NCBI GenBank assembly: GCA_905339405.1
Contig: CAJPGC010000001.1
Coordinates: 1-64,000 of the forward strand
DNA from: an uncultured bacterium
Lineage (GTDB): Bacteria > Desulfobacterota > GWC2-55-46
Length of the DNA: 64,000 nucleotides
Direction of reading: 5' to 3'
Part shown: piece after piece, positions 17,502 through 22,429 of the stretch
How the letters are laid out: each line of letters opens with the position of its first letter
Numbering within the stretch: position 1 is the first letter of the stretch
The notes under the pieces: model-generated
Databases searched by the model: none
The model's input: the letters and a program-made list of their open reading frames with translations, nothing else
Told to the model about the DNA's origin: nothing
Position numbers and translations under genes: made by a program

Positions 17502-17888
17502 TTATGAGTGCTTCTTTTTCTCATACTCTTCGGCTTCAGCCTTGTTCTTGTGGATTGTCCCGTGTGGGTGCTCCGGCGGCGAGTAGATGGAGTAGAGCTT
17601 CAAGGGCTCGGTTTTGGAGCTGTTGACTATGTTGTGCTCCACCCCTGCGGGTATGACTACGGCGGAGCCGTCCGAGAGGCTGTGCTCTGCCCCGTTCAAT
17701 ATGGCCTTGCCGTTTCCGGCCTCAACGCGTATGAACTGGTCGACGTCGCCGTGCGTCTCCATGCCTATGTCCTCGCCGGGCTTCAGGGACATCACGACAA
17801 GCTGGCTGTTTGGCCCGGTAAACAGGACCTCCCGGAAATAAGCGTTGTCCAGGGACTTCTTCTCGATGTTGGTTATGAAGCCTGCCAT
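17502..17888 (-). CDS. cupin-domain protein
   Basis: The 128-residue single cupin has the first motif around GMETHGDVDQFIRVEAGNG, with metal-ligand His and Glu candidates, and the second motif PAGVEHNIVN. A lysine-rich tail EEYEKKKHS follows. Small cupins of this kind bind a metal; the substrate is unknown. AGGAGG precedes the ATG. It lies behind the ferritin-like gene on the same strand, 39 bases apart, so the two probably share a transcript. Confidence 0.85.
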   Translation of the reverse strand: MAGFITNIEKKSLDNAYFREVLFTGPNSQLVVMSLKPGEDIGMETHGDVDQFIRVEAGNGKAILNGAEHSLSDGSAVVIPAGVEHNIVNSSKTEPLKLYSIYSPPEHPHGTIHKNKAEAEEYEKKKHS

Positions 17889-17927: not shown

Positions 17928-18428
17928 TTATGCGCGTCCCTTCAACATGAACCCCAGGTCTTCCAGCAGGGCCTGGAGGTCTTCTTCGTGCTCGACTTCG
18001 TCCGTGAGTATCTGCGAGACCAGGTTGTAGGTGACCGGGTCTTTTATGCCGACCTCCTCGATTATCGAATGATAGGTGCTTATGGCGCACTGCTCGCCCG
18101 CGATGTTCTGCTCGAGTATCTTCGATATGAACGGGTCAGTGGGCTCTGCGTAGCCGCAGCTGGCGAGCTCGAACCACTTCTTCGGCGTGGTGATGGGAGT
18201 GCCGCCGAGCTGTATTATGCGGAGCGACAGCATGTCCGCGTGCCTGAGCTCGTCGGCCGCGTGCTGCATGAGCTCGGCTATGGCCGCGTCCTTCATCGGG
18301 CCCGCGACTATCTTCGAGCCTATCCAGTACTGGTAATGGGCGAGCCATTCGTCCGCGAACGCCTTGTTGAGAAGCTCTATGGTGCGCTCAGCGGCCTTGC
18401 CTACAATCTCTCTTCCCCTTGTTCCCAT
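17928..18428 (-). CDS. ferritin-like (bacterioferritin-type) protein
   Basis: The 166-residue four-helix protein has iron-ligand motifs expected in ferritin-like domains: ADEWLAHYQYW, ADELRHADM (ExxH), EQNIAGEQCAIS and TDEVEHEEDL (ExxH). It may store iron or detoxify peroxide. It differs from classical Bfr in lacking an obvious heme-ligand Met; the exact subfamily is uncertain. AGGAGG precedes the ATG. Confidence 0.85.
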   Translation of the reverse strand: MGTRGREIVGKAAERTIELLNKAFADEWLAHYQYWIGSKIVAGPMKDAAIAELMQHAADELRHADMLSLRIIQLGGTPITTPKKWFELASCGYAEPTDPFISKILEQNIAGEQCAISTYHSIIEEVGIKDPVTYNLVSQILTDEVEHEEDLQALLEDLGFMLKGRA

Positions 18429-18548: not shown

Positions 18549-19280
18549 TCAGTACCCGCCGTACCGCGCCGCCGGGGCCTCCTGTACCCCAGCGTCCATG
18601 CCGGAGCGCACGATGAACTTTATCCCGTTGTTATTTGCCTCCAGCACGTCTATTACCATCGAGCGGAAGCGGATGGTGCTCGATTCAGAGAGGTCGTACG
18701 TAAGCTCCTGGTTGAAGTACTGGGAAGACAGGCTCCCCCGGAACTCCCTGTAAGAGACCCTTATCGTGTCTCCTGACCTGCCGCCGTAGAGAAGCTCCTT
18801 CCTTGACGAGCCGTCCTTGTAAACCGTCTTCACTTCGAGGAAGTTCTCTGGCCTCGGCTCCCATCTCCTGGTTATGCCCAGGGCGCAGGCAGCGTCCCCG
18901 TAGGCCTCTCCTGCCTGGTCGACGGCGATGCAGTATTCCCAGGCAACAGGGTCCCCGTTCGACGTTTTGGGCTTGAGCCCTTCACCCCTGTACAGAGTGT
19001 CTCCGTTTCCGAGCCGCCCGTAGACGCTGAACTCCATACCGTGTCTTATGGCCGGGTAGGATGAGCCCATCTGCGGGGGTATCTGAAAGTCGGCTTTCGC
19101 CACCGGCGTCTTGTAGTATACGAGCTCTTCTTCCACCACCATAGGCTCGCCGGTGTGCCTAGCCTGCCGTTCGCCGATGGCGTAAGACACGGACCTGTGC
19201 TTCAGGGTCTTCGGCGCGTATGGCGCGACCCCGGCGCAGCCGGATAGAGCGATGAGAGAGACAAGGATGAGCTTTTTCAT
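18549..19280 (-). CDS. exported lipoprotein, unknown function
   Basis: The 243-residue protein has a lipoprotein signal, MKKLILVSLIALSGCAG, with Cys15 as lipidation site. The rest is beta-rich with no catalytic motif that I recognise. GYCIAVD-like and YREFRGSLSSQYFNQEL segments suggest a folded soluble domain anchored in a membrane. Confidence 0.75.
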   Translation of the reverse strand: MKKLILVSLIALSGCAGVAPYAPKTLKHRSVSYAIGERQARHTGEPMVVEEELVYYKTPVAKADFQIPPQMGSSYPAIRHGMEFSVYGRLGNGDTLYRGEGLKPKTSNGDPVAWEYCIAVDQAGEAYGDAACALGITRRWEPRPENFLEVKTVYKDGSSRKELLYGGRSGDTIRVSYREFRGSLSSQYFNQELTYDLSESSTIRFRSMVIDVLEANNNGIKFIVRSGMDAGVQEAPAARYGGY

Positions 19281-19390
19281 GATGTTATACCCGTGCGCTT
19301 CCGTGAAATTGGAATATACGTAATCCTTCGGTAGAATTCAACTTTATTTTACCCGTTTGGCGGCGTGAGGCAGCCAGGGGTGGTTTGCCG

Positions 19391-19419
19391 TTGCGGGCGC
19401 GCATATGTTGTGCTATAGT
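19391..19419 (+). promoter_or_regulatory. sigma-70 promoter of a short terminated leader
   Basis: TTGCGG (19391-19396), a 17-base spacer and TATAGT (19414-19419) form the promoter. The expected start is near 19426. Confidence 0.6.
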
Positions 19420-19425
19420 GCTATT

Positions 19426-19500
19426 GAGGCTGAGGACGGCCTCTAGGATATGGCATGGTTCCCGGGGAGGTCGTTCATGACCTGTTCCGGGTTTTTTTTG
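19426..19500 (+). ncRNA. candidate small RNA or attenuator leader
   Basis: The predicted 75-base transcript has a first hairpin GAGGC...GCCTC (19427-19443). A strong terminator follows (stem CCGGGGAGGTC / GACCTGTTCCGG, 19461-19491, then eight T). The ferritin-REC gene begins 67 bases after it, so the hairpin either makes a free small RNA or attenuates that gene. Confidence 0.5.
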
Positions 19501-19566: not shown

Positions 19567-20442
19567 ATGAGCAAATTAAAGGAAATAATAGACTGGCTGA
19601 CCTGGGTCGAGGAGGCCGCCAACAGGCTCTACGAAAGGGCGGCCGTGGTATTCCAGGACGACCATGACGTGGCGATGCTCTTAAAGCAGCTCGCGTCCGA
19701 CGAAAAACTGCATCACGAGCTCATGCTCAAGGCAGGCGAGGCCCTCTCCGGCATGGGCGAATTCGCCACGATAGTCTCCCTTGATACCGAGACCAGGCGC
19801 AAGGTGGAAAAGCCGTTTGCAGAGCTTTCAGGCAAGCTCGAGGCAGGCGTACTTTCCAGGGAAGAGCTCCTCAACTATCTCATAACCCTCGAGTTCTCCG
19901 AACTCAACCATATATTCCTTTACATCATGGACTCCCTCAAAGAGGTCTCCTCCAGGCATTTCTCCTCGGCTGCCCTGAACGTCGAGCAGCACAAGGAAAG
20001 GATATGTTCTTTCGTGTCCGGCAGGCCCGGCTCGGAGTCCCTCATAAGCAGGGTAGGCCAGCTCCCGAGCGTGCTGAAGAGGAACATCCTCATCGTCGAC
20101 GACGTGGAGGTCAACCTGAACCTCCTCAAGGCGGTCCTCGAAGGCGAGGGGCTCATTGAAGGCGCCAAGAACGGGGATGAGGCCTTGCGCAAGGTTGAGA
20201 CCCAGCCGTTCTCGGCAATAGTCGCCGACGTTGATATGCCGGTGATGAACGGGATAGAGTTCTATAAAAGGGCCGTTCAGAGGCACCCGCAGCTCAAGGA
20301 CAGGTTCGTCTTCATAACCGGAGACCCCGGCCCGGAGAGGGTACACTTCTTCCAGGACAACAAATTGAGGTTCCTCACAAAGCCGGCCCCCATCAGCGAG
20401 ATACGCCGCACCGTCAGGGAAGTCATGCACGTCTGCCATTGA
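19567..20442 (+). CDS. ferritin-like domain fused to response-regulator receiver
   Basis: The 291-residue protein has an N-terminal helical bundle (residues 1-150) with rubrerythrin-like iron motifs (EEAANRLYERA, DEKLHHELM, EFSELNHIF, EQHKERI). It is joined to a C-terminal CheY-like receiver (about 175-291). That receiver has the acidic pair VDD, phospho-acceptor Asp in VADVDMP, Thr in FITGD and Lys in LTKPA. There is no DNA-binding domain. The combination suggests a signalling protein linked to iron or oxygen state, which is inference. AGAGGTG precedes ATG 19567; upstream in-frame starts fall inside the terminator hairpin. Confidence 0.8.
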   Translation: MSKLKEIIDWLTWVEEAANRLYERAAVVFQDDHDVAMLLKQLASDEKLHHELMLKAGEALSGMGEFATIVSLDTETRRKVEKPFAELSGKLEAGVLSREELLNYLITLEFSELNHIFLYIMDSLKEVSSRHFSSAALNVEQHKERICSFVSGRPGSESLISRVGQLPSVLKRNILIVDDVEVNLNLLKAVLEGEGLIEGAKNGDEALRKVETQPFSAIVADVDMPVMNGIEFYKRAVQRHPQLKDRFVFITGDPGPERVHFFQDNKLRFLTKPAPISEIRRTVREVMHVCH

Positions 20443-20599: not shown

Positions 20600-21160
20600 A
20601 TGGCTTCGGCGCAAAGACTTGCGGCTACCGGCATCGCCGGTTTTTTCATATTCTTCTGGCTCTTCGCGGCTCCAAACACCAGGCGGGCCTCGGCGGGAGA
20701 AGAAAAGAAAGCGCCTGAATCAAAGCCGTACGTCTTCAAGTCCGCGCTGGCCAACGGGAAAAAGACCGCAGGGATAGTCCTCGGCAAGACTACTTACGAA
20801 GAGGTGCTGAAGATTTTCCCGGCCCCTCCGGTCGAGGACTACGACGGCGCCTTGCGCCCCGCTGAGAGGGCCTTCGAAGGGCTCCCGTCAATCAAGTACG
20901 TCTACAACCCGTGGCAGACGATGAACGCCATCTTTTTCGACGCTGAGAAAAGGGCCGTCATGGTCTCGGAGCTCTACGAGCTCGGGGCCCTTACGGAAAA
21001 AGAGCTTCTGAGGAAGTACCCCGGCATGGTCGAATCCGACAGCGGGCAGGGCTCGATAGAGTATCAGGCCGAGCTCGAGGAGTGCATGTCCGTCATAGCC
21101 AGGGTAGAGACGGCCGGGCGCACCGTCGAGCAGCTCTCGTACGCATACACCTGTGAATAG
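20600..21160 (+). CDS. exported protein, unknown function
   Basis: The 186-residue protein has an N-terminal hydrophobic signal (GIAGFFIFFWLFAAP). Its soluble domain contains GIVLGKTTYEEVLKIFP, a pattern seen in many exported proteins with an SmpA/BamE-like opening. The cysteine pair near the C-terminus (EECMSVIAR, YTCE) could form a disulphide. The function is unknown. AAAGGG precedes the ATG. Confidence 0.65.
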   Translation: MASAQRLAATGIAGFFIFFWLFAAPNTRRASAGEEKKAPESKPYVFKSALANGKKTAGIVLGKTTYEEVLKIFPAPPVEDYDGALRPAERAFEGLPSIKYVYNPWQTMNAIFFDAEKRAVMVSELYELGALTEKELLRKYPGMVESDSGQGSIEYQAELEECMSVIARVETAGRTVEQLSYAYTCE

Positions 21161-21355: not shown

Positions 21356-22429
21356 ATGGAACTGCAGAGACCTGGGACCGTTATAGTCGTCGACGACAAC
21401 AGCTTCGTGCTTGAGAGCACCTCATTGCTCCTTTCGAGCCACGGCTATAGCGTCTACCAGTGCGCGTCTGCCGAAGAGGCGATAAGGAAGTTCGCGGGCT
21501 TTGGGGCTGACGCGGTCCTCACGGACATAAAGATGCCCGGTACTTCAGGCATAGAGCTGCTGGAGAGCCTCAGGGCCATGAACAGGGAAGTGCCCGTCAT
21601 CCTCATGACGGCCTTCGCCGAGCTGGACGTGGCCGTCAACGCCATCAAGAAAGGCGCGTTCGACTTCATCATCAAGCCGTACAAGCCGGAGTACCTCCTC
21701 CATGCCCTTGAGAAGGCCGTGAAGTACAACCGGCTCATAAGGATAGAGAAGAACTACAAGCACCACCTCGAGGAGGAGGTCAAAAAGCGCACGAGAGAGC
21801 TTGCCGACGCCCTGACGCTGGTGAAGCACGTGAGCAGCGAGCTTGTGCACAGGATAACGTCGGTTGCCGAGTACAGGGACAGCGACACGGGAACGCACAT
21901 CAACAGGATAGGGGTCTACTCGGGCGCTCTTGCCAGGGAGCTCGGCCAGAGCCCCGAGTTCATCGAGGCGATAGCGTTCGCGAGCCCCATGCACGACATT
22001 GGGAAAGTAGGCATACCCGACAGCATCCTCTTGAAGCCCGGGCCGCTTACGACGGAAGAGTTCGACGTCATGAAGGGGCATACTCAAATCGGCGGCAAGA
22101 TGCTCGCGGACTCGCCTTACGAGGCGGTCCAGACTGCGGCTTCAATAGCGAGGACGCACCACGAGCGTTGGGACGGCACAGGGTATCCGGAGGGTTTGAG
22201 GGCAGAAGAGACGCCTCTTGAGGGCAGGATTGTAATGCTCGTTGACCATTACGACGCGCTCCGCAGCAAGAGGCCCTACAAAGAAGCGTTGAGCCACGGG
22301 GAGGCCTTGCGCATAATGACGAAGGGCGACGGCAGGACCAGGCCGGAGTACTTCGACCCGACGATACTCGAAGCCTTCCTCGACATAGCCGCTGAGTTCG
22401 ACGAGATATTCACGGCCAGCAGCGATTAA
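21356..22429 (+). CDS. response regulator, receiver plus HD-GYP phosphodiesterase
   Basis: The 357-residue protein has a receiver domain at residues 6-122 (VVDDN, phospho-acceptor in TDIKMP, TAF, KPY), a coiled helix, then an HD-GYP domain (about 165-350). The catalytic [19 protein letters not shown] and [13 protein letters not shown] motifs are intact. It should hydrolyse cyclic di-GMP under control of phosphorylation, as RpfG does. No kinase is adjacent. It balances the diguanylate cyclase at 39725-41149. Confidence 0.94.

Follow-up and report, generated by a model that had tools for sequence, protein, structure and literature searches.

What a ferritin-like bundle is doing at the head of a two-component receiver is the question that this locus raises. 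The window, by which we mean the whole stretch of 64,000 nucleotides that was analysed, carries an open frame on its plus strand that begins with an ATG at 19567 and ends with a stop codon at 20440-20442; AAGAGGTG, rated a good ribosome-binding site, precedes the ATG. The product is a ferritin-like domain fused to a receiver (FLD-REC; Table 1). A sequence-only reading had seen here a rubrerythrin-type bundle with ExxH iron motifs joined to a complete receiver, and had proposed that the protein might report iron or oxygen status through a kinase relay or let phosphorylation control an oxidase-like activity. The fusion itself is borne out by Pfam, by AlphaFold2 and by the full-length relatives; a chance overlap of two genes was rejected, the two-domain layout recurring in 62 distinct full-length sequences.

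Table 1. Features of the FLD-REC gene and its surroundings, in positions of the window.
Feature	Position	Strand	Evidence
Promoter-like site followed, ahead of the start codon, by a terminator-like hairpin with eight T	19386-19500 (leader 19410..19500)	+	Sequence; relatives
Ferritin-like domain-receiver fusion (FLD-REC), 291 aa	19567..20442	+	Translation, Pfam, 62 full-length sequences, AlphaFold2
Ferritin-like bundle, residues about 3-166	19573..20064	+	AlphaFold2 of bundle alone; 1vjx Z 13.9
E15, putative helix A ligand of the E-x6-Y motif (Y22)	19609..19611	+	59/62 sequences
E46xxH49, helix B ExxH	19702..19713	+	E46 62/62, H49 61/62
E109xxE112, helix C pair, then N114	19891..19902	+	62/62 each; N114 60/62
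H142, helix D, without the Glu of the canonical helix-D ExxH	19990..19992	+	H 62/62
Receiver, residues 174-283, with D178/D179, phospho-acceptor D221, T251, K272	20086..20415	+	Pfam; 62-sequence alignment
Exported-looking protein, 186 aa, no known family, conserved next gene of the ortholog clade	20600..21160	+	Synteny in 6 other loci
REC-HD-GYP response regulator, putative c-di-GMP phosphodiesterase, syntenic partner	21356..22429	+	Pfam Response_reg and HD_5; synteny

Pfam Response_reg matches residues 174-283 above its cut-off (E 1.5e-16), and the residue set of a two-component receiver is complete in the window protein (D178, D179, D221, T251 and K272). Such a set (acid pair, Asp, Thr and Lys) is common to CheY-like and C-terminal-receiver response regulators; FLD-REC stands apart in having its receiver C-terminal, behind the putative metal bundle, and no DNA-binding or known enzyme output domain, Pfam finding no output domain beyond the bundle in the fusion protein. 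For the bundle, the Pfam Rubrerythrin profile (PF02915) matches residues 4-55, helices A and B only, with E 5e-5 and 24.1 bits for the whole protein or 25.0 for the bundle, just above the cut-off of 22.8, and it matches 14 of 35 family members at E 0.01. AlphaFold2 gave a confident bundle and receiver for the full protein (pLDDT 85, pTM 0.78), a two-domain model built from only 8 sequences. With that full model, Foldseek against the PDB returned only receivers among the matches listed, so the bundle was predicted and searched separately. Predicted alone (pLDDT 86.9, pTM 0.84), it has helices at residues 3-28, 33-60, 74-93, 98-125, 135-151 and 157-164, that at 98-125 being broken near 110-112 in the models. 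Its closest solved structure is that of TM1526, a diiron protein of the ferritin-like kind (1vjx; Z 13.9, rmsd 2.7, 144 residues, VIA-align), followed by YciF, ferritins and bacterioferritins, so that ferritin-like proteins dominate; Foldseek with the bundle alone gave weak matches only, nigerythrin first. Helical bundles can reach a Z near 13 unspecifically, so the assignment draws as well on the ligand motifs, on a profile alignment of the bundle with TM1526 (E 7e-4) and on the Pfam match. The model and its structural matches agree on the four-helix bundle of the ferritin-like superfamily.

Published ferritin-like motifs include a helix A E-x6-Y and a helix B ExxH (PMC3401498), and both are present here, as E15-x6-Y22, with Y22 kept in 61/62 full-length sequences, and as E46xxH49. 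Of the plural ExxH motifs of the sequence-only reading, then, E46xxH49 is real, but E112-L-N-H115 was rejected as an ExxH ligand pair: H115 occurs in 4/62 sequences, and the conserved motif at that place is E109xxE112xN114. Nor is there a helix-D ExxH in the 62 sequences, where H142 alone is conserved, position 139 is hydrophobic in 61/62 (I, M, V or L in 60/62) and never Glu, and position 145 is mixed. As to the register of helix D, the profile and MAFFT alignments put H142 at the Glu of the TM1526 ExxH; the hydrophobic pattern suits the His position. On helix C, E112-x6-Y119 is a candidate E-x6-Y with Tyr in 46/62, but the profile alignment pairs E109 with the TM1526 Glu.

The bacterioferritin site consists of four Glu and two His, and in rubrerythrin a helix-D Glu bridges two metals. 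Judged from the alignment, the candidate ligand set of FLD-REC is apart from both, with no helix-D Glu and with an ExxE followed by Asn on helix C; its count (four Glu, two His) equals that of bacterioferritin, and one Glu appears to have moved from helix D to helix C. With rubrerythrin's metal-bridging Glu missing, a di-metal site is not assured, and since the set is unlike that of textbook rubrerythrin, neither iron nor an oxidase activity should simply be assumed. Rubrerythrin-like TM1526 and FLD-REC have in common the fold, the helix A E-x6-Y, the helix B ExxH and a helix C Glu; FLD-REC differs in its helix D without the Glu of ExxH, in its helix C ExxExN, in having no rubredoxin domain and in the fused receiver. 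A canonical rubrerythrin identity was rejected; the C-terminus holds the receiver in place of a rubredoxin-like Cys4 iron domain, and there are no CxxC pairs. A hemerythrin identity was likewise rejected, the conserved set being E / ExxH / ExxE / H and not the hemerythrin motif H...HxxxxE...HxxxH...HxxxxD (PMC10101095).

By the criterion of the sequence-only reading, a bundle lacking metal ligands in a structural model would have spoken against it. What was found is that E15, E46, H49, E109, E112 and H142, all nearly invariant, each lie in or at the end of a predicted bundle helix, and that all six positions are among the 10 least variable of the 161 bundle positions in 75 members, the 62 distinct full-length relatives having later been extended to that number by diverged members. 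Bundle identity to the window protein is about 19-57%, the closest ortholog left out, and near-invariance of six ligand-type residues at such identity argues for a working metal site.

The architecture is unusual, as first supposed, and rare elsewhere in the phylum, but it is not unique to this locus: it belongs to a conserved family with a second full-length copy in the window's own genome (G000:C42). Matches were found in 44 of the 59 related genomes searched, about 37 of which hold full-length copies, one to three each as judged from match ranges. The window protein falls in a well-supported tree clade with eight orthologs, other paralog clades being spread over the family and order. Beyond the order, the distribution is sparse, with about 20 strong matches in 395 genomes of the phylum, mostly relatives, 7 in 295 genomes of the phylum of L004, labelled Nitrospirae, and 1 in 77 of the phylum of L006, labelled Nitrospinota; a receiver was present in all of the strong matches inspected in more distant genomes. 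The signature E-x6-Y, ExxH, ExxExN, H is not confined to receiver fusions: stand-alone proteins about 180-230 aa long carry it (L189, L193 and L238, and in varied form L190 and L196), and several genomes from the class that includes L004 have it joined to a cold-shock-like domain (L213, L218, L219, L220 and L225, the domain in L213 lying below the Pfam cut-off). The bundle is thus a portable module, and its occurrence alone or with a cold-shock-like domain is as expected of a sensory module.

Neighbouring genes point to partners within certain clades. In the ortholog clade, L134 and L227 have, on one strand, FLD-REC, the exported-looking protein (no Pfam or NCBIfam match), a membrane hybrid kinase with dCache, HAMP, PAS, HisKA, HATPase and REC domains, and the REC-HD-GYP protein; L136 shows the start of the membrane hybrid kinase at a contig edge, and the window, L228, L229 and L230 have FLD-REC, the exported-looking protein and REC-HD-GYP without a kinase between. 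The rest of the window's genome yielded no close copy of the syntenic kinase, at best 41% over the sensor half, and with that kinase absent from the window locus the phosphate donor must be another kinase. A separate clade, L120 and L148 (support 100/97), has the one-strand order REC-HD-GYP, hybrid kinase with GGDEF, then FLD-REC, at a spacing upstream of FLD-REC of 72 nt in L148 and within about 90 nt in L120, where use of the first start codon would make the open frames overlap by 13 nt. These kinases (L120:1514-4825 and L148:5989-9306) comprise DapB_N-like, GAF, PAS, HisKA, HATPase, REC and GGDEF domains; the DapB_N-like Rossmann start and GGDEF end suggest nucleotide-cofactor-linked c-di-GMP control. 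In a third clade (L111, L112 and L115) there is a convergent PilZ gene. Synteny with hybrid kinases and REC-HD-GYP genes is seen in two clades. Most loci outside the named clades adjoin neither a kinase nor a c-di-GMP gene, and no neighbour is conserved family-wide, the links holding only within clades. Near the fusion, the window's minus strand carries a ferritin/Dps-like protein (17928-18428) and a cupin (17502-17888), both kept in same-genus L134, and at 18549-19280 lies a divergent putative lipoprotein of no known family that is conserved in several orthologous loci. A plasmid search found nothing.

The reading that we favour, at slightly under even chances, is that FLD-REC serves in the cytoplasm as a metal-based checkpoint for redox state, oxygen or metal, within a two-component relay that feeds c-di-GMP control. 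The N-terminal bundle would bind a metal centre through its six conserved residues, probably di-metal and of Fe or Mn, and the metal or oxidation state of this centre, reflecting oxygen, peroxide or metal supply, would alter the bundle. The altered bundle would in turn change how readily the receiver takes phosphate from, or returns phosphate to, a hybrid histidine kinase, and the receiver may act as a gated acceptor or sink beside the REC-HD-GYP protein, with a net effect on the c-di-GMP level. The idea of status reporting through a kinase relay gains support from the conserved hybrid-kinase/REC-HD-GYP neighbourhoods and from reuse of the bundle. Further points for the checkpoint are the six near-invariant ligand-type positions, the state of the receiver, which is complete in 56/75 members (in the full-length alignment D221 is kept in 60/62, K272 in 59/62 and T or S at 251 in 59/62), and MsrA, which repairs oxidised methionine and lies as a divergent neighbour in two clades. 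Against it, 12/75 members have six of six ligands but an incomplete receiver, so not every copy depends on phosphorylation, and the neighbourhood links are few independent events: with only about 8-13 HD-GYP genes per genome, two independent adjacencies are unlikely by chance, yet the events are few and many neighbourhoods were inspected.

Response regulators usually use the receiver to control an effector, and with no other output domain at hand the bundle may itself be the output. It would then be a metal-dependent oxidase, peroxidase or ferroxidase, and receiver phosphorylation would switch its activity or assembly. We consider this unlikely, although several observations lend it weight. 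Mapped on the tree, the full receiver requires 9 changes and the full ligand set 6, or 1 when a single missing ligand is allowed. The bundle is more strongly held than the receiver, and a metal site kept even with a degenerate receiver would suit an enzyme. Rubrerythrins are peroxide scavengers (PMC10101095), and the MsrA neighbours suggest oxidative stress. Yet the multiple paralogs per genome, the orphan placement and the cold-shock-like fusion resemble signalling more than bulk catalysis, and FLD-REC lacks both a rubredoxin-type electron-donor domain and the helix-D Glu of known enzymes.

Orphan receivers that act like adaptors are common, and the bundle could be mainly a structural or docking module in which metal only stabilises, with the receiver a CheY-like adaptor or phosphate sink and no metal sensing at all. 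Diverged copies are consistent with this: the second gene of a tandem, L107:5917-6789, has lost five of the six ligands and kept its receiver residues, and a paralog clade (L202, L203, L204 and L205) has lost metal ligands and receiver acids together, L202 being G000:C40, a degenerate copy in the window's own genome. We nevertheless regard it as rather improbable, given six ligand-type residues that are near-invariant despite low identity. The copy next to L107:5917-6789 has its ligands intact and its receiver damaged, and a divided pair is possible. A sensor of metal supply, in which the bundle would signal whether it is apo or loaded with Fe or Mn, and not oxygen or redox state, is very unlikely: the ferritin-family neighbour and cupin of the window and L134 would fit, as would a four-Glu/two-His set that could bind labile metal, but that neighbour is seen only within the same genus and no iron-regulator genes were seen nearby.

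The checkpoint reading has precedents of a kind. The metal-bundle sensors on record for c-di-GMP signalling are the hemerythrin and CZB domains, and in Vibrio cholerae Bhr-DGC and Ferrovum Bhr-HD-GYP di-iron hemerythrin bundles control c-di-GMP enzymes, Bhr-HD-GYP being active only in the reduced state (PMC8846402). The likeness lies in a metal four-helix bundle (di-metal in the Bhr proteins) as the putative sensory part of c-di-GMP control; the Bhr proteins have a hemerythrin bundle with His-rich ligands in a one-chain fusion, whereas FLD-REC has a ferritin-like bundle on a receiver, the HD-GYP being a separate syntenic protein. More broadly, and tentatively, with chances somewhat short of even, a ferritin-like module with its ligands relocated (E / ExxH / ExxExN / H) may gate a C-terminal receiver and so couple oxygen, redox or metal status to c-di-GMP in trans, making FLD-REC an undescribed class of metal-bundle signal protein, the module occurring also alone or cold-shock-fused in other lineages. 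The parts are known separately; a description of the architecture, the ligand signature or its reuse was not found in the searched literature, most subscription journals lying outside the search. If the proposal is right, the two-component toolbox gains a new sensory module, ferritin-like with its own ligand signature, joined to several partners and found beside kinases and c-di-GMP enzymes.

A final observation concerns the leader of the fusion gene. It has no credible Rfam match. It is conserved in the nearest relative, L134 (E 5e-8), with a similar leader in L135; elsewhere in the genomes searched no copy reaches a significant E-value. The leader's hairpin is a possible transcription attenuator.
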